This document shows positions 1-36,277 of a DNA stretch of 36,277 nucleotides, one piece after another. The stretch spans positions 1 through 36,277 of the forward strand of contig RDXI01000008.1 in the NCBI GenBank assembly GCA_004292795.1. The letters are read 5' to 3'. This DNA is from Bacteroidota bacterium (GTDB taxonomy: Bacteria > Bacteroidota > Bacteroidia > Cytophagales > Microscillaceae). Within the stretch, counting starts at the first letter, position 1. Each line of letters starts with the position of its first letter. Below the pieces are notes generated by a model, which was not told where the DNA came from, ran no database searches, and saw only the letters and a list, made by a program, of their open reading frames with translations. The translations under genes were made by a program, and so were the position numbers.

Positions 1-105
1 ATCAGTTTGGAAAAAATCCTGTTAAATGGTGTAGTTGGTTGGAAAGGGACTATGTACAATACAGATGGACGTACTTTTGCTGTAGTTCTTGCAAGAAAAC
101 TTTAA
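1..105 (+). CDS. C-terminal fragment of an unknown protein (5' end outside window)
   Basis: Frame 1 is open from the first base to a TAA at 103-105 and gives the last 34 residues of a protein, including GWKGTMYNTDGRTFAVVLARK. The pattern of a GW.GT followed by a hydrophobic strand recalls the end of beta-lactamase/CubicO-type serine hydrolases. The fragment is too short to establish this, so no function is assigned. Confidence 0.5.
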   Translation: MSLEKILLNGVVGWKGTMYNTDGRTFAVVLARKL

Positions 106-200
106 TTGTATGCTTCAAAGTGCAAAATTGATATGTTTTGCACTTTTTTTACAAATTGTGTTATGACTGCATACCCCAACAGGCGCAAGCATTTTGCTTG

Positions 201-222
201 TGCCTACCTAACTGAAGGCTGT
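201..222 (+). repeat. 22-bp direct repeat, copy 1
   Basis: The sequence beginning TGCCTACCTAACTGAA recurs at 1906-1927 with 21 of 22 identical bases. The two copies bracket the three-gene block 371-1886. Confidence 0.7.
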
Positions 223-257
223 GCCTTCTACCGTAGGCGTACTGCCGAGCTAAACTT

Positions 258-286
258 CTTGCCTACCCACATAGGCAAGTTTTTTT
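258..286 (+). terminator. Rho-independent terminator built from an inverted motif pair
   Basis: CTTGCCTA (258-265) and TAGGCAAG (272-279) form a perfect 8-bp stem with a 6-base loop, followed by seven T residues (280-286). It lies downstream of the gene ending at 105. Confidence 0.7.
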
Positions 287-370
287 GCTTGCCTACCCAA
301 AAAAACAGGCAAAAATTATCAAAGAATGTATATTTTTTAGTATTATTGTGGCATAAAATCGAGGTTTATT

Positions 371-1156
371 ATGGAAAATGATGTTTTGATTGATTGGAAT
401 CAAGAAGTAGCAGACCTTACGCCTGAACAACAACAGCGCGTCAAGGCACTTATTGACGAATTGCGCCAAACACGCAAAGCGCAAGAAACTGAAGAAGAAG
501 ACAAAGAAGACGAAACCGAACCGCCTCCTTCGCCTTACTATCCTGCCAAAGCCCACTATGAACGGGCAGACATTATGCAAATCATAGCCAAATTTCCTAA
601 AAACAAAAAATGGACGTTCCAAGATTTGCAAAATATACAATACTTTCCGTATGATATTCGTATCAAAATCGAACTTATTAACCGTAAAATTTACATAGGA
701 AAAAATCCAAAATTGCGCCACCAAGAAATTTTGTCTAATGCCCTCACAGATGTAGGAAGTTTTGTCAAAAAAAATAAATTGGGTAGGACATATTTTGCGC
801 CAACCGCTCTTAAAATTGATGATGGCACTATTTTGAAGCCTGATATTTTGTTTATTTCTGTTTCAAAATACGATTCTATCAAAGATGATGGTATCGAAAC
901 CGCGCCTGAATTGGTAATAGAGGTCATTTCGCGCTCCAATTACAAAAAAATGCGGGAGGCGAAAAAGAAACAATATGCGGATTTTGGTGTGCAAGAATAT
1001 TGGGAAATCCACACTACAAAGCGTAAAATAATAGTAGAAACCCTCGACGAAACAACCCAAGAATTTACTGTTTTTTCGGAAGCACGCAAAACGGGGACTA
1101 TCAAATCTAAGGTTTTAGAAGGACTCGAAATAGATATAGAAAATATTTTTGAGTAA
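371..1156 (+). CDS. Uma2 family (DUF820) putative PD-(D/E)XK endonuclease
   Basis: The 261-aa protein has an acidic, low-complexity N-terminal third (EEEDKEDETEPPPSP at about 40-54) followed by a Uma2 domain. Visible hallmarks are LKPDILF (first acidic residue), PELVIEVIS (second acidic residue with the V-x-S end), a lysine-rich helix REAKKKQYADFGV and EYWEIHTTKRKIIVE. These are typical of the Uma2/DUF820 family, which has a restriction-endonuclease-like fold and no settled biological role. The N-terminal region makes it longer than the usual ~190-aa family member. The ATG at 371 follows an AT-rich leader. It is the first gene of a three-gene block with the nucleotidyltransferase-like pair downstream. 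Family assignment is firm; catalytic activity is inferred. Confidence 0.88.
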   Translation: MENDVLIDWNQEVADLTPEQQQRVKALIDELRQTRKAQETEEEDKEDETEPPPSPYYPAKAHYERADIMQIIAKFPKNKKWTFQDLQNIQYFPYDIRIKIELINRKIYIGKNPKLRHQEILSNALTDVGSFVKKNKLGRTYFAPTALKIDDGTILKPDILFISVSKYDSIKDDGIETAPELVIEVISRSNYKKMREAKKKQYADFGVQEYWEIHTTKRKIIVETLDETTQEFTVFSEARKTGTIKSKVLEGLEIDIENIFE

Positions 1157-1209
1157 ACAATTTTGAATTATTTTGTGCAGGCAAGGACATCTTCGAAAAA
1201 TTATGTACT

Positions 1210-1695
1210 ATGACAACCTTACAATTTGATGAATTTGGTTTGCTTATGCCTTATCAAACGCCCATAGAGGTAGATTTGGCAACATTGGAGCATTATTTTG
1301 TGGCGAGCTTTCCTCATTCTGTTACTCGAAAAAACATATTTATCAACTATGTGCGTTATATAGAGGAGTTCAAAAAGCGTGTTACTTCTGATTTTGTGCA
1401 ATGGCTTGATGGCAGTTTTGTAACGCTCAAAGAAAATCCTAAAGACCTCGATTTAGTAACCTTCTTTGACTATCAAATCTTTGAGCAAGAAGGGGAACGT
1501 TTAGATAGATTTTGGACTTTCTCACTCGAAGACAAAGGATTAGATGCTTATTTGGTAGCGACTTATCCGCCCAATCACCCACGATATATGGAGTATTTAG
1601 AGGATAAAGATGATTGGCTTACACTCTATTCACGCACCAAAAAGGATAACTCTAATCCATTGAATACCAAAGGTTTTATACAAATTGTGTTATGA
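1210..1695 (+). CDS. Minimal nucleotidyltransferase-like protein (DUF6932-like)
   Basis: This 161-aa protein carries WLDGSFVTLKENPKDLDLV at residues 65-83. The pattern is G68-S69, then nine residues, then D79-x-D81, the signature of the minimal nucleotidyltransferase fold, in which the two aspartates bind metal. The layout matches small bacterial DUF6932-type proteins as I recall them. Related nucleotidyltransferases act as toxins or antitoxins by adding nucleotides to proteins or tRNA, or as abortive-infection factors. No HEPN partner is visible. The gene overlaps the next one by ATGA (stop TGA 1693-1695, next ATG 1692), so the two are probably translated together. Fold assignment is moderately sure; the role is inference. 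Confidence 0.7.
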   Translation: MTTLQFDEFGLLMPYQTPIEVDLATLEHYFVASFPHSVTRKNIFINYVRYIEEFKKRVTSDFVQWLDGSFVTLKENPKDLDLVTFFDYQIFEQEGERLDRFWTFSLEDKGLDAYLVATYPPNHPRYMEYLEDKDDWLTLYSRTKKDNSNPLNTKGFIQIVL

Positions 1696-1886
1696 TTACA
1701 TATTCTGAAGAAGTCGCTTTTCTTGTCGAACAGATTGACAAATTAGATAAAAAAATTGCCTCTCGAATTGCATCAGATGGCGAAAACTCGCTTATGGTCA
1801 GGCAATACAAACACTTGCGCAAAGACTTCATCAAACAACTGAACGAAGTAATGCAGGAACATGGGCTGATGGTGCAAGAGGTTTAA
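1692..1886 (+). CDS. 64-aa helical partner protein of the nucleotidyltransferase-like gene
   Basis: This small, strongly helical, charged protein has heptad-like hydrophobics (VAFLVEQIDKLDKKIASRI and HLRKDFIKQLNEVMQEHG), consistent with a short coiled coil. It has no signal peptide and no recognised domain. Its ATG overlaps the upstream stop by four bases, so the two genes are almost certainly co-translated and may encode interacting proteins. The arrangement resembles a toxin-antitoxin pair, but which would be the toxin cannot be told from sequence. The terminator at 1946-1989 closes the block. Confidence 0.7.
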   Translation: MITYSEEVAFLVEQIDKLDKKIASRIASDGENSLMVRQYKHLRKDFIKQLNEVMQEHGLMVQEV

Positions 1887-1905
1887 AAGGTTGCGCTAAT
1901 TCTCT

Positions 1906-1927
1906 TGCCTACCTAACTGAACGCTGT
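1906..1927 (+). repeat. 22-bp direct repeat, copy 2
   Basis: This differs from copy 1 (201-222) at a single base (C for G at the 17th position). It starts 20 bases after the 64-aa gene ends and overlaps a CTTGCCTAC motif. Confidence 0.7.
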
Positions 1928-1945
1928 AGGCGAACCAACCAAACC

Positions 1946-1989
1946 AAAACCAACACAAAAATCGTTAAGCCCGTTTTTGTGTTGGTTTT
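1946..1989. terminator. Bidirectional terminator between convergent genes
   Basis: AAAACCAACACAAAAA (1946-1961) and its exact complement (1974-1989) form a 16-bp perfect stem with a 12-base loop. The A-rich and T-rich flanks serve both the + strand block ending at 1886 and the - strand gene ending at 2011. Confidence 0.75.
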
Positions 1990-2010
1990 ATCATATTCAG
2001 GCAAGAAAAC

Positions 2011-2457
2011 TTAGTCGCGTATCACTCGTTTTTCCTTCTTTTCGGGTTGGGGCGAAGTGTCTATTATCAATCGGCTGTAGAGAGTCATCACTTCAAAGCC
2101 TGCGTTGTCATAAAAGGTAAGTTTTTCGCCTTCCAATACAAACCGTTTGCTATTTATTAAAAAAGAAACGCCAAAATCGTCTTCTTGCACAAGACAGAAC
2201 TTTCTTGTAGAAACTTGTTCGCCCAATGAAAACCCTTTTCGGGGCGAATAACTATATTTCACATGAAAAGTGTTACAGCCATCACTTCCTGAAATCTCTG
2301 TTTCACTATTAAACGTGAAGCCATATCCTGCGTCTTGTCGCTGGATAGGATACCAAACCTTGCCTACCAAATCTTTGAGTGATGTTTTGGTCGTTTGGGC
2401 TTGCACAGCAGGCAAGCATAAAAAGGCACAAAGCCACAGCAACATATATCGTTTCAT
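2011..2457 (-). CDS. META (HslJ-like) domain secreted protein
   Basis: I place the start at the ATG at 2455-2457 because it opens a clean signal peptide (MKRYMLLWLCAFLCLPAVQA, cut near AQA-QT). An upstream in-frame ATG at 2517 would bury it. The mature ~130 aa matches a META domain: a leading LVGKVWYPI, the SGSDGCNTFHVKYS segment (family pattern GxxGCNxxxGxY), STRKFC, and a C-terminal LTFYDNAGFEVMTLYSR. META-domain proteins are small beta-rich periplasmic or lipoprotein factors linked to stress or antibiotic tolerance. Exact function here is unknown. The gene is monocistronic and convergent with the block ending at 1886. Confidence 0.75.
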   Translation of the reverse strand: MKRYMLLWLCAFLCLPAVQAQTTKTSLKDLVGKVWYPIQRQDAGYGFTFNSETEISGSDGCNTFHVKYSYSPRKGFSLGEQVSTRKFCLVQEDDFGVSFLINSKRFVLEGEKLTFYDNAGFEVMTLYSRLIIDTSPQPEKKEKRVIRD

Positions 2458-2581
2458 ATCATTTCGTATTTGTGAGTGTATATTTTCATTTGCAAAATTT
2501 ATTACAACACGCTTCAAAGAGGCGTGCTAAAAATGCAAAAAGAACAAGTCCGTTTATGTTTCCACCTTCAACGCAGAGGTG

Positions 2582-2611
2582 TTTTGTTTTGATAGATGTT
2601 TGCTATCTTTG
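2582..2611 (+). promoter_or_regulatory. Bacteroidota-type promoter for the carbamoylputrescine amidase gene
   Basis: TTTTG at 2582-2586 and TATCTTTG at 2604-2611 (consensus TAnnTTTG) are separated by 17 bases. The -7 box lies 24 bases before the ATG at 2636. Confidence 0.6.
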
Positions 2612-2635
2612 CGCATCTAACCTCCTTGCCTGCCC

Positions 2636-3508
2636 ATGTCCAAAGTAAAAATCGGCACAGTGCAAATGCAATGCACCGCCAATAAGCAAGAAAACATTGC
2701 TAAAGCCATCGCCCAAGTCCGCGCCGTAGCGCAACAAGGGGCGCAAATCGTGTGCTTGCAAGAACTCTTTGCCTCGTTGTACTTCTGTTTCGAGGAAAAT
2801 CACGATTATTTTCCGCTTGCCGAGAGCATACCCGAAGGCGACACTACCCAACAAATGCAAGCCTTAGCCCAAGAGTTGGGTGTGGTGATTATTGCTTCGC
2901 TGTTCGAGAAACGCGCTGCGGGTTTGTATCACAACACAACGGTTGTGATAGATGCAGATGGTTCGTATTTGGGCAATTACCGCAAAGCGCATATACCTGA
3001 TGACCCCGGTTTTTATGAGAAATTTTATTTCACGCCTGGGGATACAGGCTACAAGGTCTTTGATACGAAGTTCGCCAAAATTGGCGTGTTGATTTGTTGG
3101 GATCAATGGTATCCTGAAGCGGCACGCATCACAAGCCTTATGGGGGCTGAAATTTTGTTTTACCCCACCGCGATAGGCTGGGAAGTGGGCGCAAACGAAG
3201 AAGTGAACAAGGAACAATACAATGCGTGGCAACTCATTCAAAGAAGCCATGCTATAGCGAATGGTATTCCTGTAGTGTCGGTCAATCGCGTAGGTACAGA
3301 AGCAGACACAGATTTTTGGGGCGGTTCGTTCATTGCGAACCAAATGGGAAGCCTTTTATATCTTGCCTCCCACGACAAAGAAGAAAACCACGTGCAAGAA
3401 ATCGACCTCGCTTTGAGCGATTATTACCGCACTATCTGGCCTTTCCTACGCGACAGACGCATCGACAATTACGCGCCTATTCTTTCGCGCTATTTGGGAA
3501 AACCTTAA
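2636..3508 (+). CDS. aguB: N-carbamoylputrescine amidase (nitrilase superfamily)
   Basis: This 290-aa enzyme hydrolyses N-carbamoylputrescine to putrescine, CO2 and ammonia, the last step of the agmatine route to polyamines. The nitrilase catalytic triad is complete: Glu43 in CLQELF, Lys117 in YRKAHIPD and Cys154 in LICWDQWYPEAAR. The stretch KAHIPDDPGFYEKFYFTPGD and the following GxxVFDT are very typical of AguB. Length equals the family norm. No agmatine deiminase (aguA) gene is beside it in this window. A perfect TATCTTTG promoter box precedes it. Assignment is strong, although some close relatives act on other amides. Confidence 0.9.
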   Translation: MSKVKIGTVQMQCTANKQENIAKAIAQVRAVAQQGAQIVCLQELFASLYFCFEENHDYFPLAESIPEGDTTQQMQALAQELGVVIIASLFEKRAAGLYHNTTVVIDADGSYLGNYRKAHIPDDPGFYEKFYFTPGDTGYKVFDTKFAKIGVLICWDQWYPEAARITSLMGAEILFYPTAIGWEVGANEEVNKEQYNAWQLIQRSHAIANGIPVVSVNRVGTEADTDFWGGSFIANQMGSLLYLASHDKEENHVQEIDLALSDYYRTIWPFLRDRRIDNYAPILSRYLGKP

Positions 3509-3520
3509 ACAACAAATAGA

Positions 3521-3593
3521 AGACAGGATTAACAAGATTGACAGGATTTTTTTCTTTTGTGTTAGATGTCCAATTTACCTGTAAATCCTGTCT
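3521..3593. repeat. AGACAGGATT-type dispersed repeat with inverted arms
   Basis: AGACAGGATT (3521-3530) is repeated as GACAGGATT (3540-3548), and both pair with AATCCTGTCT (3584-3593). The run AACAAGATTGACAGGATTTT is a pattern I know as a recurrent intergenic repeat in many environmental bacteria. The T-run after the second copy could also end transcription of the amidase gene. Confidence 0.55.
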
Positions 3594-3637
3594 AAAACCC
3601 CGCCTACCTATAACCCGCAACCCACCTCCCCACTCCC

Positions 3638-4495
3638 ATGTACGACTACCTAAAACCCGAATATATCCACGCCTTCATCAAACAAGCCTTAGTAGAAGAC
3701 ATAGGCGAGGGCGACCACTCCACCCTTGCCTCCGTACCTGCAGGCAAGATAGCCAAAGCTCGCCTACTCGTGAAAGATAACGGCATTTTGGCAGGCGTGG
3801 AAATGGCACAACACATTTTCCACACTGTCGACCCCGAGCTACAGTTGCAAATCTTGTTGCAAGATGGACAAGCTATCCAAAAGGGCGATATCGTGCTGTA
3901 TGCGGAAGGCAAGGCGCAATCTATCTTGCAAGCGGAGCGTTTGGTGCTGAACTGTATGCAACGCATGAGTGGCATAGCTACGCATACGCGCCATTTGGCT
4001 AACAAAATCAAACATACCAAAGCCCAACTTTTGGACACACGCAAGACCACACCCAATTTCAGAATTGCCGAAAAATGGGCGGTAAAAATAGGCGGAGGCA
4101 CAAATCATCGCTTCGGATTGTTTGATATGGTGATGCTCAAAGACAACCATATTGACTATGCGGGAGGCATCAAACAAGCCATCGAACAAACAAAGGCTTA
4201 CCTACAACAGGCAGGCAAGGCTTTGAGAATTGAGGTCGAAACACGCTCTTTGGAGGAGTTGGAAGAAGTGTTGGCGGTGGGTGGCGTTGATGTGATTATG
4301 CTCGACAATTATTCGCTGGAAAATATGCGTACTGCGGTGGCGCGTGTGGCAGGCAAGGTTGCCCTCGAAGCATCGGGAGGCATTACCGAAGCTACTATAG
4401 TGCCTATTGCCGAAACAGGCGTGGACTTCATTTCGGTAGGCGCATTGACGCACTCCGCAGGCAGTTTGGATTTGAGCCTGAAGGCTTTTGCTTAA
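3638..4495 (+). CDS. nadC: Nicotinate-nucleotide pyrophosphorylase (carboxylating)
   Basis: NadC joins quinolinate and PRPP to give nicotinate mononucleotide, PPi and CO2 in de novo NAD synthesis. The 285-aa sequence has all the family landmarks: EDIGEGDHST near residue 20, RLVLNCMQRMSGIAT at about 101-115, DTRKTTP at 133-139, KIGGGTNHRFGL at 150-161, MLKDNH at 166-171, IEVET, IMLDN and the final EASGGI and SVGALTHS. No nadA or nadB lies nearby. It follows the amidase gene in the same direction after 129 bases that hold a dispersed repeat, so the two are probably separate units. A strong bidirectional terminator follows. Confidence 0.95.
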   Translation: MYDYLKPEYIHAFIKQALVEDIGEGDHSTLASVPAGKIAKARLLVKDNGILAGVEMAQHIFHTVDPELQLQILLQDGQAIQKGDIVLYAEGKAQSILQAERLVLNCMQRMSGIATHTRHLANKIKHTKAQLLDTRKTTPNFRIAEKWAVKIGGGTNHRFGLFDMVMLKDNHIDYAGGIKQAIEQTKAYLQQAGKALRIEVETRSLEELEEVLAVGGVDVIMLDNYSLENMRTAVARVAGKVALEASGGITEATIVPIAETGVDFISVGALTHSAGSLDLSLKAFA

Positions 4496-4520
4496 TTTTT
4501 TCTTGCCTACTACATACAAA

Positions 4521-4551
4521 AAAACGGATAAGGTTTCCCTTATCCGTTTTT
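4521..4551. terminator. Bidirectional terminator between nadC and the amylase gene
   Basis: AAAACGGATAAGG (4521-4533) pairs perfectly with CCTTATCCGTTTT (4538-4550) around a 4-base loop. A-runs and T-runs flank both sides. It sits between two convergent genes. Confidence 0.85.
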
Positions 4552-4574
4552 GGTTTTTATATACCTATGTATGC

Positions 4575-6962: not shown

Positions 6963-7045
6963 TGTTTTAGAGATTAAACGGTTAGATTGGAAAAGTACAA
7001 TTAAGAAAAATACATCCAAAGTCTTACGTTGTAAGTTTCTTGCTA

Positions 7046-7077
7046 CAAAGGTGTAAGTAAAATTTGTACTTTTCAAA
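7046..7077 (-). promoter_or_regulatory. Possible promoter of the amylase gene
   Basis: Read on the - strand, TTTG (7074-7077) and CACCTTTG (7046-7053) are 20 bases apart. This is the Bacteroidota spacing, with one mismatch to TAnnTTTG. It lies about 85 bases before the start codon. Confidence 0.35.
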
Positions 7078-7119
7078 TTTTCAATAGGCTTTTTTGGGTA
7101 TTTCTTTTATACAACGTAT

Positions 7120-7135
7120 GCACAAACGTTTGTGC
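7120..7135. promoter_or_regulatory. 16-bp perfect palindrome resembling a LacI-family operator
   Basis: GCACAAACGTTTGTGC is fully symmetric with a central CG step and AAACGTTT core, the usual form of LacI/MalR-type operators. It lies about 160 bases upstream of the amylase start and upstream of the possible -33 element. No LacI-type gene is in the window. Confidence 0.5.
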
Positions 7136-7197
7136 TATATAATTTTTTTTAGATAGGATATGATTTTAACAACAGAATCCGTATGTAAGATTTGCAT

Positions 7198-8152
7198 CTT
7201 GCCTACGTTGATGTAAGATAACGCGCCTTGCCTACCCAAAAAATAGCCTCAAAAAAATACTATTTAGGCTTTATGACCTATCTTTAGCCCCACAAAGTAT
7301 ATTTCAGGGTTTCGATTCCACCTATGTTTTTTTTGAAGCGGATAAGCCCCTCGTTTCTCGTGCCGTTTTCGGTAGCAATGCCCAAATCAAAGACCTCAAA
7401 ACCGCGTTCTTTCGCCCAATTTGCCACAAACTCCAGCAACAAGACCATAGGACTGTAGGCAAGCCACGCTTCGGAGTCGGCAGGATAAAAATTATACAAA
7501 GTGTGGGCATCTGTTCGGACTGTTACCGTAAGGGCTACCAACTCTTGAGCTTGGCTACGCACCACAAAAACGTCATAATAGGCAGGAAAAGCCTCGAACA
7601 TAGCGCGGAAGGCAGGCAAGGAAAGTGTCATAGGAAAGCCCTTGCGCTCGCGGGCTTGGGCTATGAATTGATGCACCACATCAAGGTCAGGACTTGCCCA
7701 ATGCTTGCCTACTAACCTTGCCTGCTGTGCCTTTCGCAAACGTCTTTTTTCCGAATGATGCAACTTGCCTACAAAATCAGATGAGAGCGAAAGATGATAA
7801 TTCAAGTCCGCAGGCAAAGCAGGAAAGGGCAGAAAAGCAGGCAAGCTCGAATCGGGAGGCAATTTGACGCAAATTTTCTCCGCGCCTGCTTCGCGTAGCT
7901 TGCCTACCACAAAACCAAAAAAATCTTGAAAAACCTCTGTAGGCAAGTCATTGCCATACCAACCGCCAAACGTAGCACGAGGCGGATTATAAGCCACGCC
8001 TTCGCGCAACACAAACGGCATAATGCCTTCCAAAAACCCTTCCGCATTGCGCACCGCGAAAATGCTTACCTGCTCGCCTGTTTGTTCGAGGTAGGCAGGC
8101 AAGGCAAATAGGCAAGGCACGTAGGCAAGGCGAGCTTGCCTGTAGGCAAGAA
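7198..8152. repeat. Dense cluster of the dispersed GYAGGCAAG / CTTGCCTRC motif
   Basis: This segment holds about 13 exact copies of the 9-mer (for example near 7453, 7703, 7768, 7899, 7940, 8124 and 8144), in both orientations, 11 of them inside the GNAT-like gene. The motif is spread through the whole window at lower density. Confidence 0.75.
7243..7272 (-). terminator. Probable terminator of the GNAT-like gene
   Basis: On the - strand, AGCCT and AGGCT arms (7266-7270 and 7245-7249) enclose a T-rich loop and are followed by ATTTTTT. The stem is short, so confidence is moderate. Confidence 0.4.
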
Positions 8153-8171
8153 GGTCGAGGCAATCAAACAT
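7284..8171 (-). CDS. GNAT/FemAB-like acyltransferase, function unknown
   Basis: The start at 8171 (MFDCLDLLAYRQARLAYVPC) is chosen because sequence upstream of it belongs to a repeat element (8204-8289) and not to protein. The 295-aa product looks like a two-lobed FemAB/GNAT protein. It has an N-terminal lobe, a basic HHSEKRRLRKAQQARL helix at mid-length, and a C-terminal lobe with ELVALTVTVRTDAHTLYNFYPAD, then SPMVLLLEFVANWAKERGFEVFDLG and RFKKNIGG. That last pattern is typical of FemAB-like and BioF2-like acetyltransferases. The substrate is unknown. The gene is unusual for its 11 exact copies of the dispersed motif, which appear in the protein as LP-A/T, VGK and AGK stretches. Confidence 0.65.
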   Translation of the reverse strand: MFDCLDLLAYRQARLAYVPCLFALPAYLEQTGEQVSIFAVRNAEGFLEGIMPFVLREGVAYNPPRATFGGWYGNDLPTEVFQDFFGFVVGKLREAGAEKICVKLPPDSSLPAFLPFPALPADLNYHLSLSSDFVGKLHHSEKRRLRKAQQARLVGKHWASPDLDVVHQFIAQARERKGFPMTLSLPAFRAMFEAFPAYYDVFVVRSQAQELVALTVTVRTDAHTLYNFYPADSEAWLAYSPMVLLLEFVANWAKERGFEVFDLGIATENGTRNEGLIRFKKNIGGIETLKYTLWG

Positions 8172-8559
8172 ATACAAAGACAGATAGAGTACAACGTAAT
8201 GTCTGTCATTCCGACTGAAAGGAGGAATCTCGCTTTTAAATAACGATACGTCCCGATAAACGGGATTTTTCGCTTCGCTCAAAATGACAAAGCATTACAA
8301 CTACCCAAAGATACACCAAAAACAGCTTTTAGGCGAAGTTTATACTTTTTTTTAGCATTTCAAAACTTTCATATTCCACAGATTGTTTTATGTTTTTCTA
8401 TATAACACCTCGAAACCGCTTACAAAGTGCTTAAGAACCAAATTTTATATGGTTTATTTTCTATTAAACAAAATGAAATAAAAAAAATGATAATTTTTCT
8501 TTATTAAATTATATTATTAACTTGCAACGATTTTTTTACCTCCTTTCCCTCTCCTTTGT
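8172..8559. other. 388-bp divergent intergenic region
   Basis: The region lies between two divergent genes and holds no gene. Positions 8204-8289 are a small inverted-repeat element. Positions 8290-8559 are very AT-rich (especially 8455-8520) with no clear hairpin and no full TTTG/TAnnTTTG promoter that I could accept. Confidence 0.6.
8204..8289. repeat. 86-bp MITE/REP-like element with TGTCATT/AATGACA ends
   Basis: TGTCATTCCGACTGAAAGG at the left and its imperfect complement ending CGCTTCGCTCAAAATGACA at the right form long imperfect terminal inverted repeats. An internal TCCCGATAAACGGGA hairpin lies at about 8251-8265. Elements of this TGTCATTCCGA...AATGACA type are familiar as dispersed intergenic repeats in Bacteroidota. 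There is no coding capacity. Confidence 0.6.
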
Positions 8560-10650: not shown

Positions 10651-10678
10651 AGTAGGCAAGCCATTACGCTTGCCTACT
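10651..10678. terminator. Terminator formed by an inverted dispersed-motif pair
   Basis: AGTAGGCAAG (10651-10660) and CTTGCCTACT (10669-10678) form a perfect 10-bp stem with an 8-base loop, followed by ATTATTTTT. It lies between two convergent genes. Confidence 0.75.
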
Positions 10679-15907: not shown

Positions 15908-15939
15908 CTTGCCTACCCACGCGAAGGTAAGTAGGCAAG
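15908..15939. terminator. Terminator formed by an inverted dispersed-motif pair
   Basis: CTTGCCTAC (15908-15916) and GTAGGCAAG (15931-15939) form a perfect 9-bp stem around a 14-base loop, with an A-run on the left that serves as a T-run on the - strand. It lies between two convergent stops (15903 and 15945). Confidence 0.6.
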
Positions 15940-25379: not shown

Positions 25380-26120
25380 TCAATCAAAAAAATCAGGGGG
25401 CAAACGCCTCACAGCAGGCATAGAATGAAGTAACATAGTAAAGGAGGCTTTGCGCGAAAGTAAGTCTTTCAACTCACGTTTTGCCTGTAGTTTTTCTTGG
25501 CTACCCTCTTTAGCATCTTTCCACTCCAAAATTTTGTTCAAAATGTCCATATACTTTTTTTGTATGACGTGCCTTAGTTGGGCTGTTGCTTGTTGTGTAT
25601 CTTTGTCATGTCCATTGTGTACTCTATCCAATAAAGCACAAGTATTTACTGCTTTTTGGTTCGTAGTGTCTTTAGCTTCAAAATAGGGCTTTTCGCCATA
25701 CGCAGACAAACTGTATAAAATTTCCGTTTCGACATCATCTTCGCATGGGTTCAGATAACCTCCTGCGGGTGTTTTGCGTGGTTTGAGCATATTGGCTTGG
25801 TGCGAAGCAGGAAAGAGGTTTGTCCACTCAAACGTCAAATCGGGGCGTTCTGCCTTGCCTACAAAATGCTCAATGTCCATTATCCAAGCATTGACAAATT
25901 TTTCTTCTGTCAAATAACACTTTGAAAAAAAATCTCTGTCAAAGGCTTCCAATAAGTCCGAATTGCGATAAGCAGGTGGTTTTTCGGGTTTGGGAACGGT
26001 AGGATTGTTTGGGTTTTGTTCCTTGTCTTGCAGGTAAGCTATCGCGTCTTGTATGTACGCTTGTATTTCTGCGGTTTGCAAAGAGGCTGGAGCTATGGGG
26101 CTTCTTTGTATGTTTATCAT
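25380..26120 (-). CDS. HNH-type nuclease of a Septu-like (PtuB-like) defence module
   Basis: The 246-aa protein has the layout of TIGR02646/PtuB-like HNH nucleases. A KCYLTEEKFVNAWIMDIEHFVGKAERPD block carries Glu84-His85, DLTFEWTNLFPASHQANMLKP carries Asn101, His107 and Asn110, and GYLNPCEDDVETEILYSL follows. The cysteines that usually bind zinc are mostly replaced (KCY and ASHQAN instead of CxxC), which is unusual. The C-terminal half is helical. Its start overlaps the stop of the ATPase gene by four bases (ATGA), so the pair is co-translated. Nuclease fold is moderately sure; defence role is inferred from context. Confidence 0.68.
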   Translation of the reverse strand: MINIQRSPIAPASLQTAEIQAYIQDAIAYLQDKEQNPNNPTVPKPEKPPAYRNSDLLEAFDRDFFSKCYLTEEKFVNAWIMDIEHFVGKAERPDLTFEWTNLFPASHQANMLKPRKTPAGGYLNPCEDDVETEILYSLSAYGEKPYFEAKDTTNQKAVNTCALLDRVHNGHDKDTQQATAQLRHVIQKKYMDILNKILEWKDAKEGSQEKLQAKRELKDLLSRKASFTMLLHSMPAVRRLPPDFFD

Positions 26121-27328
26121 GCGGATAATGGGGCTTGTAGTTCAATAAGTTGGCTTTCTATTTCGAGGCGTAAAGAAGGCGTAAGGTATTGCTCATTCTC
26201 TATAAACACTTGTTGAAGTTTCGCGGTGTCTTTGGCTTTGATAGCATTATTTACCTCTTCCAAAATGCGGTCTGCCACAGGCGAGAACTCATTTTCTAAT
26301 CCAAAATGTCTTATCATCAGTTCGGAGTAGCTACTACCCACGAGCCAATCCGCCACTTGTTTTTGTGAGGAAAGGTCATAGACTACTGCATTTTTTAAAC
26401 TTGAAATCACAGCAGGCGAGTGTGTGGCAACTATCATTTGCAAGTTAGGAAATAAGCGTGCTATGATAGGCAAGACCTCATACTGCATAGAAATATGCAA
26501 GTGCGTTTCGGGTTCATCTATCAACACAAAACCAGCAGGATTGTAAGCAAAATCGTATTTTTCCTTGCGTATTAAATCCACTCGCATGAACAAATCCATC
26601 AAGATATTCAGGAAAGCTGAAAAGCCATCAGACAATTCGTTGAAAGTGATGCGTCTTCCATCTCCCAAGCGCAAAAAGAACTCAAAATTAGCTTGTTCAA
26701 ACTCAAGTACGAGTTTTTGGTCATGGAAAATATCTCGCAGGGTTTGCGTAAAATTCTCAAAAAAGCGTTCATTTTCTTGTATTTCTTCTTGCCTACCGCC
26801 CAACTGTGCAAAGGCTTGATACACTTTTTTATTGACTAAGTATTGTTTAAAGTTTGCTATAAAAAATTCAGTGCTGTTTTGTGACTGACTAAGCTGATTT
26901 GTAAAATTATCTTGTTTAGTAACAGTATCGACATTTTTTACTACTACTTTTCTGCTTGCTTTAAAGAAAGAAAACAAAAAATCTTTGTTAGCTTGCAAAA
27001 GTTCTTCTTTATAGGTGTACTGAATGTTAATAGCATCAAACTTGTGTAATTCCCTTACCCAATCTTGTATTTGTGGGTGCTTTGGGTTTGATTTTATAAG
27101 TTCTTTAAAATACACTGCTTGATTATTGGGTAAGCCCCCTTGTTTTAAATGAATGAGTAGATGTTCCACTCTATTCAAAATCGTAGTTTTCCCTGAACCA
27201 TTCTTGCCTGTAAGAATAATATGCCTGAACTCGCCTTTGGGCGCGTGGGTGTCTATCCTAAGCCCTTGATAGGCATAGCAATCGTTGATAATCAAACTGC
27301 TGATGTATGGAAATTCGCTGTTTTTCAT
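26117..27328 (-). CDS. ABC/AAA-type ATPase of a Septu-like (PtuA-like) defence module
   Basis: I use the ATG at 27328 (MKNSEFPYISSL). A longer frame begins with TTG and would start inside the promoter. The 403-aa protein has a Walker A motif TGKNGSGKTTILN at 40-52. An ABC-type signature LSDGFSAFLNILMDL follows near 227, then a Walker B in FVLIDEPETHLHISMQ and a switch histidine in IVATHSPAVISSL. This is the AAA_15/AAA_21 architecture of OLD-like and PtuA ATPases. It is translationally coupled to the HNH gene. No reverse transcriptase or retron RNA is seen, so it is not a retron. Septu subtype is not certain. Confidence 0.72.
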   Translation of the reverse strand: MKNSEFPYISSLIINDCYAYQGLRIDTHAPKGEFRHIILTGKNGSGKTTILNRVEHLLIHLKQGGLPNNQAVYFKELIKSNPKHPQIQDWVRELHKFDAINIQYTYKEELLQANKDFLFSFFKASRKVVVKNVDTVTKQDNFTNQLSQSQNSTEFFIANFKQYLVNKKVYQAFAQLGGRQEEIQENERFFENFTQTLRDIFHDQKLVLEFEQANFEFFLRLGDGRRITFNELSDGFSAFLNILMDLFMRVDLIRKEKYDFAYNPAGFVLIDEPETHLHISMQYEVLPIIARLFPNLQMIVATHSPAVISSLKNAVVYDLSSQKQVADWLVGSSYSELMIRHFGLENEFSPVADRILEEVNNAIKAKDTAKLQQVFIENEQYLTPSLRLEIESQLIELQAPLSA

Positions 27329-27332
27329 GGCG

Positions 27333-27340
27333 CAAATATA
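27333..27340 (-). promoter_or_regulatory. -7 box TATATTTG of the ATPase-HNH operon
   Basis: On the - strand TATATTTG is followed by only four bases (CGCC) before ATG at 27326-27328. The mRNA is predicted to be leaderless. Confidence 0.55.
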
Positions 27341-27375
27341 CAAAAAATACTTAAAAAAAAACGCCTAAAACCCCC

Positions 27376-30618: not shown

Positions 30619-30665
30619 AATGAAACTAATTATGCCACAATTTTAACGAAAAATGTGGTAAAATC

Positions 30666-30673
30666 CAAAAATA
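30666..30673 (-). promoter_or_regulatory. -7 box TATTTTTG of the PP2C gene
   Basis: On the - strand this matches TAnnTTTG, 47 bases before the start codon at 30618. No -33 element is seen at the right spacing. Confidence 0.35.
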
Positions 30674-30783
30674 CTTTTTATTAGAACAATAGATGTTTTT
30701 ACAAACGATTGAATATCAATTATTTGCGCGTTTTTGATTTTATGCACCTCATAAATTTGTATGTAAGGTTTGGGGCAATATAC

Positions 30784-30817
30784 AAAAAAAGCCCCGCTTT
30801 TGACAAGCAGGACTTTG
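30784..30817 (-). terminator. Terminator of glyA
   Basis: On the - strand, AAAGTCCTGCTT and AAGCGGGGCTTT form a stem with two G-T wobbles, followed by TTTT. It lies 16 bases after the glyA stop. Confidence 0.65.
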
Positions 30818-30832
30818 TAGTTATTTTTATGA

Positions 30833-32107
30833 TTACCAAGCGAACAACGGGAACTCTTGCATGAAGCTGTTGATTTCTGTTTTTACAACTTTTAGGGTAG
30901 CGTCATCATCATTTTTCATCAAAGCCGTATCAATCCAATGCGCTATTTTTTCCATATCGGCAGGCTTCAAACCGCGTGTAGTGAGGGCAGAAGTACCCAA
31001 ACGCATACCTGAAGTTACGAAAGGCGATTTATCATCAAAAGGCACTGCATTTTTGTTGATAGTGATGTCTGCCTTGATGAGTGTTTCTTGTGCGAGCTTG
31101 CCTGTAAGGTTTTTGCTACGCAAGTCTATGAGCATCAAGTGATTGTCTGTGCCTCCAGAAATGATTTGGTAGCCACGCGACACCATCGCATTTGCCAATG
31201 CTTGTGCGTTTGCTTGTACTTGTTTGCCGTATTCGAGGAACGAGTCGCTCAAGGCTTCGCCATAAGCAATAGCCTTGCCTGCTATGACATGCTCAAGCGG
31301 TCCGCCCTGTGTACCAGGGAAAACAGCCGAGTCCAATAATTCGGAAAGCATACGCAACTGTCCTTTGGGGTTTTTGATGCCAAAAGGATTTTCTATGTCG
31401 TGGCGCAACATAATCATACCTCCGCGAGGTCCGCGAAGTGTTTTGTGTGTAGTGGTAGTTACTACGTGGCAATGCTCCAACGGGTCATTCAACAAGCCTT
31501 TGGCTATCAAACCTGCGGGGTGGGCAATATCCGCCATAAGCAACGCGCCTACACTGTCCGCAATTTGGCGCAAACGAGCATAATCCCAATCACGAGAATA
31601 GGCAGAAGCACCACAAATTATCAATTTAGGCTTTTCGCGTTCTGCGGTTTCAGCCACTTTGTTCCAATCAATCAATCCCGTTTCGCGCTCCACGCCATAG
31701 AAAGACGGGCTATAGAGCTTGCCTGAAAAATTGACAGGCGAGCCATGCGTAAGGTGTCCGCCATGCGCGAGGTCGAAGCCTAAGATTTTATCGCCTGCTT
31801 GCAATAATGCGAGCATTACTGCGGCGTTGGCTTGCGCCCCAGAGTGTGGCTGTACGTTTGCCCAAGTAGCCTTGAAAAGTTCCTTAGCGCGGTCAATGGC
31901 TAATTGTTCTATTTCATCAACCACTTCGCAACCGCCATAATAGCGTTTGGCAGGCAAGCCTTCCGCATATTTGTTTGTGAGGACGCTCCCCATAGCACGC
32001 ATCACTTGTTCAGAAACGAAGTTTTCGGAGGCTATAAGTTCGATGCCATGTGTTTGGCGTATCCTTTCACGCTCAATGAGGTCGAATATGATTTGGTCTT
32101 GTTTCAT
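30833..32107 (-). CDS. glyA: Serine hydroxymethyltransferase
   Basis: The 424-aa PLP enzyme interconverts serine and glycine with tetrahydrofolate. Clear landmarks are [10 protein letters not shown] (24-33), [15 protein letters not shown] (45-59), [11 protein letters not shown] (84-94), [10 protein letters not shown] and the PLP lysine Lys222 in [16 protein letters not shown]. The C-terminal [16 protein letters not shown] is also typical. The gene is monocistronic, with a TACTTTTG box 16 bases upstream of the start and a terminator downstream. It lies back-to-back with the restriction-modification operon, separated by 154 bases that hold the palindromes. Confidence 0.97.
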
Positions 32108-32122
32108 TGTGCGAAGTTAGGG

Positions 32123-32130
32123 CAAAAGTA
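32123..32130 (-). promoter_or_regulatory. -7 box TACTTTTG of glyA
   Basis: On the - strand this matches TAnnTTTG and lies 16 bases before the start codon at 32107. Confidence 0.45.
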
Positions 32131-32184
32131 GTAGATTTTCAAATTTATAGGAAAAAGCAGGGCAAAAAGCTATGTTTGATTACC

Positions 32185-32210
32185 ATAGCTTTTTTACGCA
32201 AAAAAGCTAT
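32185..32210. promoter_or_regulatory. 26-bp perfect palindrome, distal candidate operator
   Basis: Arms ATAGCTTTTTT (32185-32195) and AAAAAAGCTAT (32200-32210) flank ACGC. A further AAAAAGCTAT half site lies at 32164-32173. Confidence 0.7.
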
Positions 32211-32227
32211 CAAATCCCTTTGTAACT

Positions 32228-32252
32228 ATAGCTTTTTACGCAAAAAAGCTAT
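32228..32252. promoter_or_regulatory. 25-bp near-perfect palindrome overlapping the MTase promoter
   Basis: Arms ATAGCTTTTT (32228-32237) and AAAAAAGCTAT (32242-32252) flank the same ACGC. Its right edge overlaps the -7 box (32250-32257). It is 43 bp from the distal copy, about four helical turns. Confidence 0.7.
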
Positions 32253-32257
32253 ATTTG
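32250..32257 (+). promoter_or_regulatory. -7 box TATATTTG of the restriction-modification operon
   Basis: This matches TAnnTTTG perfectly and is followed by only four bases (CATC) before the ATG at 32262. The overlap with the palindrome suggests repression by a bound protein. Confidence 0.6.
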
Positions 32258-32261
32258 CATC

Positions 32262-33230
32262 ATGAAAACCATAGATTTGTTTGCGGGTATTGGAGGCATA
32301 CGTTTAGGATTTGAGGCTTTTGGCTGTGAAAATGTTTTCACGTCAGAATGGGATAAAGATGCTCAAAAAATGTACGAAGCTAATTTTGGTGAAGTGCCTT
32401 TGGGCGATATTACCCAAATAGCCCCTGATTCTATTCCTGACCACGATATTTTGTTAGCGGGTTTTCCTTGCCAGCCTTTTTCTATCATTGGCAATATGCA
32501 GGGTTTTGCAGATACACGCGGAACGCTGTTTTTCAATATAGAAGAAATTTTGCGTGTCAAACAACCTTATGCTTTTTTATTGGAAAACGTTAAACAATTA
32601 CGTACACACGACTCAGGGCGAACTTTTAAGGTTATTTTAGAAAAATTACAAAACTTAGGTTACTTTGTGCATCACACTATTTTGAACGCCTTAGATTTTG
32701 GCTTGCCTCAAAAACGCGAAAGAACGATTATAGTAGGCTTCAAAGAAGATGTGAGTTTTAAATTCCCTAAACCTGTTGCTGTTGGTTTATCTTTAGAGCA
32801 GATATTAGAGCCTGAAGAAACTATAGATAAAAAATATTTTGCTTCTCAAGACATCAGAGAAAAACGCCTAAAACGCCTCAAGATTAAGCCATTTTATCCT
32901 TCTATTTGGCACGAAAACAAAGGGGGCAATATTTCTGTCTTGCCTTTTTCGTGTGCATTGCGCGCAGGCGGTTCTTACAACTACTTGCTTGTGAATGGCA
33001 AACGCAGATTTTCAGAGCGTGAATTATTGCGCTTACAAGGATTTCCCGATTCATTCAAAATAGCAGTGAGTTATACAGCTATGCGCAAGCTAACGGGCAA
33101 TAGTGTTGCTGTGCCTGTGATGAGAGCAGTAGCGCAAGAAATGATGAAAGCCATACAAGAAAGAAAAATAGTACAAAAATTTCAACAACTAACCCTTTTA
33201 GATGCCGTATATGAATATTCAAACTGCTAA
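32262..33230 (+). CDS. C5-cytosine DNA methyltransferase of a HaeII-type type II RM system
   Basis: The 322-aa enzyme methylates cytosine in the target of the neighbouring nuclease. Motif I FAGIGGIRLGFEAFG (7-21), motif IV GFPCQPFS with the catalytic Cys70, motif VI LLENV at 106-110, motif VIII QKRER at 150-154, motif IX RRFSERELLRLQGFP (about 249-263) and motif X GNSVAVPV are all present. The target recognition region spans about 165-248. The protein begins at motif I with no N-terminal regulatory domain. The gene overlaps the nuclease gene, giving a compact operon. The expected target is RGCGCY, supported by the apparent absence of that sequence in the window. AT-rich composition and lack of the dispersed motif suggest horizontal origin. 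Confidence 0.95.
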   Translation: MKTIDLFAGIGGIRLGFEAFGCENVFTSEWDKDAQKMYEANFGEVPLGDITQIAPDSIPDHDILLAGFPCQPFSIIGNMQGFADTRGTLFFNIEEILRVKQPYAFLLENVKQLRTHDSGRTFKVILEKLQNLGYFVHHTILNALDFGLPQKRERTIIVGFKEDVSFKFPKPVAVGLSLEQILEPEETIDKKYFASQDIREKRLKRLKIKPFYPSIWHENKGGNISVLPFSCALRAGGSYNYLLVNGKRRFSERELLRLQGFPDSFKIAVSYTAMRKLTGNSVAVPVMRAVAQEMMKAIQERKIVQKFQQLTLLDAVYEYSNC

Positions 33231-34272
33231 AGAAGCTCTCGACAAGGTGATTGACAAATCACGAGTTCATCTGTATAAACCCATACAAATTGCCGAAATT
33301 TTGTATAGGGATAGGATTATACAAGATATTACACTTACAGAATTGGAAACATATCGTAACCCATCTAAAAAATGGCGAGATAAAATTTGTGTGCCTTTTC
33401 TGGGTAGGACAAGTACCTCATCTGCAAGGTATCAAGACGACCTTTTTAATGAAAATGCTGTGCCACCTGCTACTTTGGCTGTTTTAGGCAAGGAAAACAA
33501 GAGCAAAAATGGCATTGTAGAAGCCTACATCTATAAACGTTTTGCAGAACGTTTTTCTCAAATGTCTGTTGCTTTAGACTATTGCACTAAACACAGCCCT
33601 CAAACTTTTCAGCTCAATGATTTTTTAGATTTATTTTGGAAAGAAGCAGGTTTGAAGCGTAGCATTGATAAAATCTATGAAATAGTTGTTTACGCGCTAT
33701 TTTCTGCTTTAGTTGAGGTTTTAGAGCTTACTGTTGAGGTATCATACAATCTAGCTAAAGTAAGTATCTTGCAAGAGTTTGGAGATTTCTCAAGTAATGT
33801 CTTGAACTTATCTTCGAATACGCCTCATTTTCAAAGCACAGCGAAAATATACAGAGTCGGAGTAACCAATGCGGCTGATAGAGGAATGGATATGTGGGCA
33901 AACTTTGGCTTGGCAATCCAAATCAAACACCTATCATTAAGCGAAGAGGTAGCGGAAAATATTGTAAATACAATAACTGCTGATAGAATCGTGATTGTGT
34001 GCAAGGAGGTAGAACAAAAAACGATATTATCATTTCTCAATCAATTAGGATGGAAATCTCGCATACAGAGCATTGTTACTGAAAAAGACCTCGTAAATTG
34101 GTATGAAAAGGCTTTGCGAGGCGTATATGCTGAACAAATAGGAAGCAAAGTGTTAGAAATTTTGCAAAATGAAATTCAAGTAGAATTTCCTGCTACAAAA
34201 AATGTTGAATTTGATAGCTTTTTCGAAGGAAGAGAATATCACAGATTGCATGATTCTTTTTGGACTGTATAA
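33202..34272 (+). CDS. HaeII-family type II restriction endonuclease
   Basis: The 356-aa protein starts 29 bases inside the methyltransferase gene (a second in-frame ATG at 33211 is equally possible). It closely resembles HaeII-family nucleases, which I recall as about 350 aa. The putative PD-(D/E)XK core lies at about 225-247 in YRVGVTNAADRGMDMWANF followed by GLAIQIKHLSL, where Asp-x-Trp and the Gln-x-Lys pair would be catalytic. HaeII recognises RGCGCY. The rest is helical without known domains. It is the second gene of the RM operon, and a 13-base gap precedes the acyl-CoA dehydrogenase gene. Confidence 0.85.
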   Translation: MPYMNIQTAKEALDKVIDKSRVHLYKPIQIAEILYRDRIIQDITLTELETYRNPSKKWRDKICVPFLGRTSTSSARYQDDLFNENAVPPATLAVLGKENKSKNGIVEAYIYKRFAERFSQMSVALDYCTKHSPQTFQLNDFLDLFWKEAGLKRSIDKIYEIVVYALFSALVEVLELTVEVSYNLAKVSILQEFGDFSSNVLNLSSNTPHFQSTAKIYRVGVTNAADRGMDMWANFGLAIQIKHLSLSEEVAENIVNTITADRIVIVCKEVEQKTILSFLNQLGWKSRIQSIVTEKDLVNWYEKALRGVYAEQIGSKVLEILQNEIQVEFPATKNVEFDSFFEGREYHRLHDSFWTV

Positions 34273-34285
34273 ACCATAAAACGAT

Positions 34286-35476
34286 ATGACCAATTTATTT
34301 CTTACGCCTCGCCTGAAGCCTATTCTTGAACAGATACGGCAGTTCATGAAAGAGGAGGTTTTACCCTTAGAAGCCAATTTTTTGCACGATTGGAAAGGTA
34401 CTGCCCAAATCCTCGAAGCCAAACGCGATAAAATTCGTGCTTTGGGATTGTGGGGCTTGCACTTGCCGAAAGATTTGGGCGGTATGGGCTTGACACTCTG
34501 CGAATTTGGGCAACTAAGCGAAGTATTAGCCGAGTCGCCTTTGGGACATTATGCCTTTCATGCACAAGCTCCCGACATAGGCAATACCGAACTTTTGCAT
34601 CATTTTGGAAGCGATTACCAACACAAAACTTTCCTGCACCCACTCGCCGAAGGCAAGATTAGGAGTTGTTTTGCTATGACCGAACCCGAATTTGCAGGCT
34701 CAAATCCTGTAAACTTGGCTACCACTGCCGTACTCGAAGGGGACGAATATGTCATCAATGGGCATAAATGGTACACTTCCAGCGCAGATGGGGCTTCGTT
34801 TGCTATAGTCATGGCGGTTACCAATCCCGAAAACGCGCCTCACCAACGCGCAAGTATGATTGTAGTGCCTACTGATACCAAAGGCTTCAGCATTGTGCGC
34901 AACATAAGCGTCATGGGCGAAGCAGGCGAGGGTTGGCTTAGTCATGCAGAAGTGCGTTTTGAGAATTGCCGAGTGCCGAAAGAAAATTTGATAGGCGAGG
35001 CAGGCAAGGGCTTTGCTTTGGCGCAACACCGCCTCGGACCTGGGCGTATTCATCATTGTATGCGCTGGGTGGGCATTTCAGAACGCGCCCTCGATATGAT
35101 GATTCGTTACGCACTGAAACGCGAACTGAACAAAGGCGAAACGCTTGCTAACCAACAAGTTATACAGCATTGGATAGCAGAAAGCAGGGCAAATATCAAT
35201 GCCGCAAGGTTGATGGTATTGGACACTGCAAGAAAAATAGATGAACAAGGTGCGCCCGCTACGCGCAATGAAATCTCGGCTATCAAGTTCTTTGTGCCTA
35301 AGATTATGCTTGATGTGGTGGATAAGGCGTTGCAAGTGCATGGAGGTTTGGGAATGTCAGACGACACTGTCCTTGCCTTCTGGTACAGACACGAAAGGGC
35401 TTCGCGTATTTATGACGGAGCAGACGAAGTACACAAAACGGCTCTTGCCAAACATATTTTGAAGGGATATATGTAA
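34286..35476 (+). CDS. Acyl-CoA dehydrogenase family protein
   Basis: The 396-aa flavoenzyme resembles the ACAD10/11-like branch. Marks are LWGLHLPKDLGGMGL (51-65), CFAMTEPEFAGSNPVNLATTA for FAD and substrate contact, INGHKWYTSSADGA, LAQHRLGPGRIHHCMRWVG, LQVHGGLGMSDDTVLAFWYRHERASRIYDGADEVHKTALAKHIL. The catalytic acid region GLGMSDDT and the C-terminal RIYDGADEVH match the family. It likely oxidises an acyl-CoA (possibly 3-hydroxy or branched), but the substrate cannot be set. It begins 13 bases after the nuclease gene yet differs in base use, so it may be native and only adjoined by the RM insertion. Confidence 0.9.
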   Translation: MTNLFLTPRLKPILEQIRQFMKEEVLPLEANFLHDWKGTAQILEAKRDKIRALGLWGLHLPKDLGGMGLTLCEFGQLSEVLAESPLGHYAFHAQAPDIGNTELLHHFGSDYQHKTFLHPLAEGKIRSCFAMTEPEFAGSNPVNLATTAVLEGDEYVINGHKWYTSSADGASFAIVMAVTNPENAPHQRASMIVVPTDTKGFSIVRNISVMGEAGEGWLSHAEVRFENCRVPKENLIGEAGKGFALAQHRLGPGRIHHCMRWVGISERALDMMIRYALKRELNKGETLANQQVIQHWIAESRANINAARLMVLDTARKIDEQGAPATRNEISAIKFFVPKIMLDVVDKALQVHGGLGMSDDTVLAFWYRHERASRIYDGADEVHKTALAKHILKGYM

Positions 35477-35483
35477 AACCGCG

Positions 35484-35518
35484 AAAATCCTTGCCTACAG
35501 TTCGCAGGCAAGGATTTT
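35484..35518. terminator. Terminator formed by an inverted dispersed-motif pair
   Basis: AAAATCCTTGCCT (35484-35496) and AGGCAAGGATTTT (35506-35518) form a perfect 13-bp stem with a 9-base loop. It lies between two convergent genes. Confidence 0.8.
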
Positions 35519-35535
35519 ATATGTTTTTTCGAAGG

Positions 35536-36277
35536 TTAGACTATTCTAACCGCCTTGCCTCCGCTCATGTCCTCCCAATATTCGAGCAAATCCTTGCAAA
35601 ATTCGGTGTTTGCTTCGGCAAAGTAGCAAGTGCGGTGCATTTCTTCGGCAAGCAAAAGCATTGTGCCAAGACCACCATACGCATCAATCACAGTGTCGTG
35701 TTCGCGTGTGAGGTTTTGCAAAAGATGTTTCATGTAATCTTTGGTTTTGCTACCGCCTTTCAGGTCGGAGTTGTCTATTTCCCAAAAATCTACCAAACGC
35801 GAGTCGATGTTTTTTTGAGAGAAAAGAGCCGTATAAATCCAGCCTCCCATCAATGTTTCGGCACGACTCAGGCGAGCGCACATACTCCAACGGTAGGGAA
35901 GTTGCGTAAGGCGTAGAAAATGCTGTAGCTCTTGCACTTCAGGCGTTACGGCTATGACTTCAGCCTTGATAATCATTTTGTCAAAATTCCACGCGCCACT
36001 CGCGCCTTGTATGATGCGGGGCGGGTTGAGGTAGGCAAGGGCGCAACGGTCAGGCAAGCGTTTGAAAAAAGCCTCGTCTGCTCCATCACCACAATACAAC
36101 AAATGTTGCCCAAGTTGCCAAAACTCGCCTGCCTTCACAGTGCGCATTTGGCGTTCTATGCGTTCCTGCTCCTCGCGTTCTTTGGCGTTCTTCTTGTCGC
36201 GGAAGTAGGCAGACGTTCTCTCTGCTTCTTCTTGGCTACTGTTGCGTTTTAGCTGGAGCGCGTCCTTGTAGGTTTCG
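35536..36277 (-). CDS. DNA N6/N4 methyltransferase-like protein, 5' end outside window
   Basis: The frame is open from the stop at 35536 through the window edge. The N-terminal part visible is helical and charged (EEAERTSAYFRDKKNAKEREEQERIERQ). The pattern GEFWQLGQHLLYCGDGAD then LAYLNPPRI matches the start and catalytic motif of ParB-linked/phage-type DNA methylases, and VIDAYGGLGTMLLLAEEMHRTCYFAEANTEFC is motif I with the FxGxG-type turn. The catalytic motif is NPPR where most enzymes have (D/N/S)PP(Y/F/W/H), so activity is doubtful. Residues 50 to 120 of the fold look shortened. No restriction partner is visible. Confidence 0.6.
   Translation of the reverse strand, partial: ETYKDALQLKRNSSQEEAERTSAYFRDKKNAKEREEQERIERQMRTVKAGEFWQLGQHLLYCGDGADEAFFKRLPDRCALAYLNPPRIIQGASGAWNFDKMIIKAEVIAVTPEVQELQHFLRLTQLPYRWSMCARLSRAETLMGGWIYTALFSQKNIDSRLVDFWEIDNSDLKGGSKTKDYMKHLLQNLTREHDTVIDAYGGLGTMLLLAEEMHRTCYFAEANTEFCKDLLEYWEDMSGGKAVRIV

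Follow-up and report, generated by a model that had tools for sequence, protein, structure and literature searches.

Genome-saturating DNA uptake words are known, to our knowledge, from the Neisseriaceae and Pasteurellaceae only, the uptake signal sequence (USS) of the latter family being AAGTGCGGT. The DNA uptake sequence (DUS) of the Neisseriaceae occurs about 1900 times in the 2.2-2.3 Mb genomes of Neisseria meningitidis and N. gonorrhoeae and nearly 6000 times in the 2.4 Mb of Kingella oralis, with exact and one-mismatch copies standing at 1:1.15 and 1:1.45 in two Neisseria (Frye et al. 2013, PMC3630211). Here we show that a 36,277-nucleotide stretch of Bacteroidota DNA (contig RDXI01000008.1 of assembly GCA_004292795.1, family Microscillaceae; hereafter the window) is saturated by the 9-mer CTTGCCTRC, or GYAGGCAAG on the opposite strand, and that this is, as good as certainly, a real, genus-specific and maintained iterated word. 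From its sequence properties we further propose, with the balance of probability about evenly poised, that it could serve as an uptake-sequence-like genomic self-label of the genus for natural transformation.

The window holds 79 copies of CTTGCCTRC (46 CTTGCCTAC and 33 CTTGCCTGC), on both strands and spread throughout, together with 164 copies of the looser core CTYGCCT. The by-eye figures of an initial annotation proved close to the exact counts: some 149 copies of TTGCCT/AGGCAA became 155, about 46 copies of TTGCCTAC/GTAGGCAA were exactly 46, a similar set ending in TGC amounts to 37 copies of TTGCCTGC/GCAGGCAA, and about 18 is indeed the number expected for a random 6-mer on both strands (36277 x 2 / 4096); the motif also lies, as described there, on both strands, both intergenically and inside genes, where every one of the six frames is represented. 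Genome-wide, the assembly that holds the window (G000; 430 contigs, 4.56 Mb, 82% complete) contains 7145 copies, 3571 forward and 3574 reverse, and the reversed-letter control pattern is absent from both strands (0 + 0). The strand-neutral density of 1.57 per kb is identical in G000 and its congener G001, and is within the range of the DUS counts given by Frye et al. (PMC3630211). In 212 kb of sampled sequence, window included, a first-order Markov model predicts 1.4 copies of CTTGCCTAC and 2.6 of CTTGCCTGC, compared with 229 and 175 seen; the genome total and the Markov comparison thus both lie far above expectation. Among the sampled contigs, 10 of 40 from G000 and 3 of 40 from G001 consist entirely of N and carry no information on the motif, and G001 densities taken from sampled sequence include about 8 kb of N in the denominator. 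A reading of motif-free, foreign-looking contigs as contamination was dropped, since those checked were entirely N.

Comparison with related genomes confined the enrichment to G000 and G001. The latter, the sole other genome of the genus found, carries 8458 copies; the other 55 relatives searched carry 4-396 each (20-396 in the 13 remaining genomes of the family), and 394 genomes drawn from the phylum, a few of which overlap with those relatives, reach a maximum of 154. The next-densest genome after the genus (G040) has 244 copies in 3.2 Mb, so that none searched comes near it, and 80 loci from named genomes of the phylum, 3-21 kb each, hold 0-2 copies per locus. A serine hydroxymethyltransferase tree of 26 of these loci places the window, without strong support, beside a Microscillaceae and a Cytophagales metagenome-assembled genome, and the presence in the window of GldD and of a secretion-system C-terminal sorting domain is consistent with a gliding member of the Bacteroidota.

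Alignments between G000 and G001 comprised 33 blocks (27.8 kb at 74% identity, 17 blocks inside the window). Within them, 40 of the 82 aligned motif occurrences face the motif in the other species, compared with 62 of 361 for letter-permuted words; gaps are faced by 13 of 82 and 27 of 361, respectively, and some turnover of the motif through insertion or deletion is possible. Thirty distinct coding sites of G000 aligned ungapped, 20 with unchanged amino acids (10 of them in the window and 5 in locus L188) and 10 with changed ones. The motif is kept at 3 of the 10 changed sites and at 17 of the 20 unchanged ones, where 0.66 would be expected from G001 codon usage; three-codon identity outside motifs at same-amino-acid codons is 12.7%, a control that ignores the R position. 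Retention at 17 of 20 sites thus shows site-specific maintenance in this sample, by selection or by continuing drive.

The motif differs from its own reverse complement, its flanks contribute no symmetry, and its profile is graded. Numbered from 1 along CTTGCCTRC, the word admits C at position 3 and A or T at position 4; at position 8 it favours A or G and tolerates C or T, and at position 9 it favours C and tolerates A or T, G being absent there from the samples of both species. Raw counts of exact and one-mismatch copies are 599:786 in G000 and 707:490 in G001. In G001 a C precedes the 9-mer (0.45 bit at -1) and another directly follows it (1.06 bit), whereas G000 has 0.08 and 0.19 bit at the same two positions. 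The two species on which this comparison rests therefore have a common core and differing flanks, as DUS dialects do.

Copies are denser between long reading frames than within them (2.74 vs 1.78 per kb in G000, 2.38 vs 1.72 in G001), genes being taken here and below as reading frames of at least 100 codons, not curated. Within genes, sense and antisense copies are about equally frequent (153 and 173 in G000, 100 and 93 in G001) and each fifth of the gene receives a nearly even share, with a peak of sense copies in the first (54 of 221 in G000, 70 of 269 in G001). Neighbouring copies are randomly oriented, 283 pairs having the same and 285 the opposite orientation in G000, and 326 and 347 in G001; 10% of copies are at most 30 bases apart, compared with 6% under random spacing. 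Where intergenic copies form inverted pairs, with starts at most 45 bases apart, 16 of 21 in G001 have the order CTTGCCTRC...GYAGGCAAG and 5 the other. The window offers three such pairs and one particularly dense gene:

7284..8282, minus strand: 11 exact 9-mers in a GNAT/FemAB-like gene, the highest density among the 32 reading frames tabulated for the window
10652..10677, no strand: inverted pair GTAGGCAAG-8-CTTGCCTAC, between convergent reading frames
15908..15939, no strand: inverted pair CTTGCCTAC-14-GTAGGCAAG, between convergent reading frames
35490..35512, no strand: inverted pair CTTGCCTAC-5-GCAGGCAAG, between convergent reading frames

If CTTGCCTRC is an uptake label, the DNA receptor of the transformation system would bind the 9-mer best, and motif-bearing DNA would preferentially be taken up. 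Recombination into the chromosome would then spread and repair the motif where it is tolerated, which would more often be the case in intergenic sequence and in reading frames that do no harm. What is seen is a strand-neutral motif present in thousands of copies, surrounded by no repeat, flanked differently in each species and held against synonymous change. The known ComP-type minor pilin would probably not be the receptor. Of the transformation machinery, DprA is encoded in 15 of 15 family genomes, G000 and G001 included, and ComEC in 14 of 15, G001 included. Transformation of Riemerella anatipestifer requires ComEC, DprA, ComF and RecA together with four proteins whose function is unknown (PMC8459023). 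In R. columbina, own DNA is preferred, the k-mer list presented in that report comprising only A-rich words (PMC7965970). With natural competence and self-preferring uptake both present in the Bacteroidota, it is plausible, though unproven, that a receptor outside the pilus reads an uptake word.

Several points weigh against an uptake label. No transformation data for the genus are known to us. The search for ComEC had no match in G000, which is 82% complete. PF00437, the family of PilB, PilT and GspE, was above cut-off in 0 of 15 family genomes, pilins, secretins and the Riemerella proteins not being among the searches; 13 of 14 control genomes pass the same cut-off, and weaker matches occur in 9 of the 15, that of G000 lying just below the cut-off, at 24.0 versus 24.9 bits, in an open frame of 77 residues. 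Because no type IV pilus ATPase rises above the cut-off, the reader of the motif would have to be another protein. The competence genes that were found occur also in motif-free relatives, and so cannot explain the restriction of the motif to the genus. Intergenic inverted pairs in G000 have no order preference (8 vs 7), and the near equality of sense and antisense copies in genes differs from the biased orientation reported in Pasteurellaceae and Neisseria (PMC2346458). Finally, a repair or methylation ratchet would yield many of these patterns too.

The word was also sought in phage sequences. Among 294 viral loci checked, namely the matches listed in motif-pair scans plus one related search, only L410 (IMGVR_UViG_3300046328_001329), a Mu-like phage fragment of 8241 bases, has many copies spread over its length: 12 CTTGCCTRC (1.46 per kb) dispersed over 8 kb, with 12 further CTTGCCT and 7 CTCGCCT. 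It encodes an integrase-like protein, an N6/N4 DNA methyltransferase, terminase subunits, a Mu-type portal and head-tail proteins. The portal has no match in G000 or G001. G003 and G012 encode relatives at about 35% identity, G002 and G011 weaker ones; the loci around these hold 0-1 motif copies in G003 and G012, none in G002 and 2 over 3.4 kb of G011. L410 contains no GGCC, GATC, CTAG or CCGG, with 16-30 of each expected, and the same four words stand at 0.01-0.12 of expectation in the samples of G000 (330 kb) and G001 (385 kb); in four other family genomes sampled some are rare (GATC 0.05 in G006 and G010, CCGG 0.08 in G006), never all four together. Motif density and missing palindromes, shared with G000 and G001, indicate that L410 probably originates from this genus, and a phage of the genus filled with the word would accord with the uptake scheme above. 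As yardsticks, we counted 17 USS in the 32 kb of the temperate Haemophilus phage HP1 and 27 HIP1 sites (HIP1, highly iterated palindrome 1, of cyanobacteria) in the 50 kb of Nostoc phage A1; since both carry the word of their hosts, phage carriage fits the uptake and the HIP1 class alike and decides for neither.

In other viral loci with at least 5 copies, these lie mostly in clusters, tandem repeats or G+C-rich stretches. L468 and L306 have 5 copies each, spread over 11-13 kb (0.35-0.36 per kb), and L359, a viral contig of 61% G+C that is otherwise motif-poor, packs six CTTGCCTAC in both orientations into about 170 bases (7554-7718).

Of the explanations that compete with an uptake label, a bias in codon use or composition, or an origin in remnants of a larger mobile repeat, comes close to impossible. 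The peptides to which the initial annotation had drawn attention, LPT/LPA and VGK/AGK, are correctly described, and the frames V/A-G-K and x-L-P-T/A do hold most coding copies, but they are not the cause of the enrichment: in 167 long reading frames (G000 only), 326 coding copies are seen, compared with 17.0 +/- 4.1 after synonymous shuffling. Intergenic density moreover exceeds genic density, information in the G000 flanks within 15 bases on each side is at most 0.19 bit per position, with no surrounding larger repeat, and the motif is missing from the other family genomes; by shuffling, intergenic density, flank and family counts this explanation is refuted. A ratchet of the HIP1 type, in which a word-specific DNA methyltransferase or a mismatch-repair bias creates and preserves the motif, which may or may not have a function itself, is rather improbable. 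It would account for a density that resembles that of HIP1 and for a phage fragment filled at host density that encodes a DNA methyltransferase, and Elhai (2015), who connects methyltransferases with HIP1 and with alternate HIPs, has modelled a ratchet of this kind (PMC4390886). The palindromic form of HIPs, however, is not shared by CTTGCCTRC; in its graded tolerance and the difference between its flanks the word resembles the profile of a protein-binding site; and the HhaI-like methyltransferase of the window, the one candidate considered, does not track the motif.

A minority possibility is that the word marks self for another kind of DNA handling, as a site for a nucleoid or chromosome-organising protein, or as a tag of own versus foreign DNA in defence or recombination that phages must copy. 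A dense, strand-neutral and maintained motif would suit such a role, and L410, with the motif and without the four palindromes, seems subject to the sequence rules of its host. FtsK-orienting polar sequences (KOPS), Chi and similar signals are strand-biased, and the lack of shared orientation between adjacent copies speaks against strand-polar signals of this kind; no candidate protein was identified for this role. On sequence evidence, the data fit an uptake-type sequence better than HIP1, since the word is non-palindromic, its flanks differ between species, and its ratio of exact to one-off copies is in or below the Neisseria range. In proposing an uptake-type or HIP1-type signature the initial annotation thus seems to have named the right class, with the uptake type the better fit and the usual pilus ATPase not found.

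The methyltransferase lies in the longest motif gap of the window, and a defence locus lies elsewhere:

25380-27343, minus strand: Septu-type defence pair PtuB/PtuA, with one exact motif in each gene
31949..34999, no strand: longest gap between successive exact 9-mers of the window, containing the methyltransferase and the restriction enzyme
32262-33230, plus strand: HhaI-like cytosine methyltransferase, within the longest motif gap
33202-34272, plus strand: type II restriction enzyme, within the longest motif gap

The methyltransferase and restriction enzyme genes together contain no exact 9-mer and 3 looser cores. Homologues of the methyltransferase occur in G001 (82% identity), G004 (80%) and G010 (60%); it was rejected as a partner of the motif because G004 has only 121 copies in 6.8 Mb. 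The word survey of G000 and G001 also indicated that GCGC is not avoided.

No such word is reported for the Bacteroidota in the literature searched, which covered top-ranked matches, including few subscription papers and no preprints. With somewhat less than an even chance of being right, we suggest that a DNA uptake sequence system may have arisen independently in the Bacteroidota, with a receptor unrelated to type IV pilins. Other such systems may exist, since the genomes of Fibrella and Spirosoma are rich in a different word (below), and this branch of the phylum may thus carry iterated words as a recurring trait that has so far gone unreported. A clear uptake word here would mean a further origin of sequence-selective DNA uptake, in the phylum of R. 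anatipestifer, whose transformation needs four proteins of unknown function (PMC8459023), and the motif would be a ready bait for the missing receptor. The motif also marks DNA of the genus in metagenomes, where its density, together with missing palindromes, links one viral contig to a probable host type.

Other words were encountered in related genomes. In Fibrella forsythiae (L104, L427-L431) an unrelated, ACGTA-centred word, AACGTACC, has 4379 copies compared with 158 for its reversed control; it has 2121 vs 159 in Spirosoma profusum (L102, L432-L436) and 1267 vs 134 in Spirosoma validum (L096), and is below its control in a Hymenobacter (50 vs 93) and a Dyadobacter (127 vs 148). In 121 kb of Fibrella, AACGTACCTG exceeds a first-order model 180-fold. 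Hymenobacter sp. BT559 (L101, L437-L441) has a possibly HIP1-like palindrome, GGCTAGCC, which exceeds such a model 8-fold, likewise in 121 kb. Within the family, G004 (L450-L452) has 17 scattered copies in 18 kb of TGATWATCA, a palindrome except at its centre and possibly an iterated word, of which 57 kb of G003 contain none; among 8 other family genomes, 18-60 kb each, no comparable iterated word was seen except in G004.

Set beside the described systems, CTTGCCTRC differs from the k-mers of Riemerella and Flavobacterium johnsoniae, for which Bacteroidota had already been searched with an uptake-type word in view: these are low-complexity and A-rich, at 0.5-0.6 per kb and about 3-5 times expectation (PMC7965970), whereas CTTGCCTRC is a 9-mer of complex sequence that exceeds a first-order model about 100-fold. 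With HIP1 (GCGATCGC) it has in common a very high density over a lineage and presence in a phage of the host group; HIP1, however, is an exact palindrome tied to methyltransferases, and CTTGCCTRC, being asymmetric and with no partner enzyme known, is not a HIP1. With USS it shares the form of a dense, strand-neutral 9-mer carried by a phage, as temperate HP1 carries USS and L410 the present motif; it differs in having no strong A/T-rich flank pattern and in belonging to another phylum. Like DUS, it is a short non-palindromic word on both strands, at about 1-2.5 copies per kb, inside and between genes, with related species sharing a core and differing in flanks and with an exact to one-off ratio near 1, and its inverted intergenic pairs, in which one order prevails in G001 but not in G000, may be a further resemblance; unlike DUS, it is an unrelated word in an unrelated phylum, with no type IV pilus ATPase above cut-off. 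As it is known from sequence alone, unlike DUS and USS, and as the pilus route was not found, we do not class it as a member of either system. By analogy, it nevertheless appears to work most like DUS and USS.

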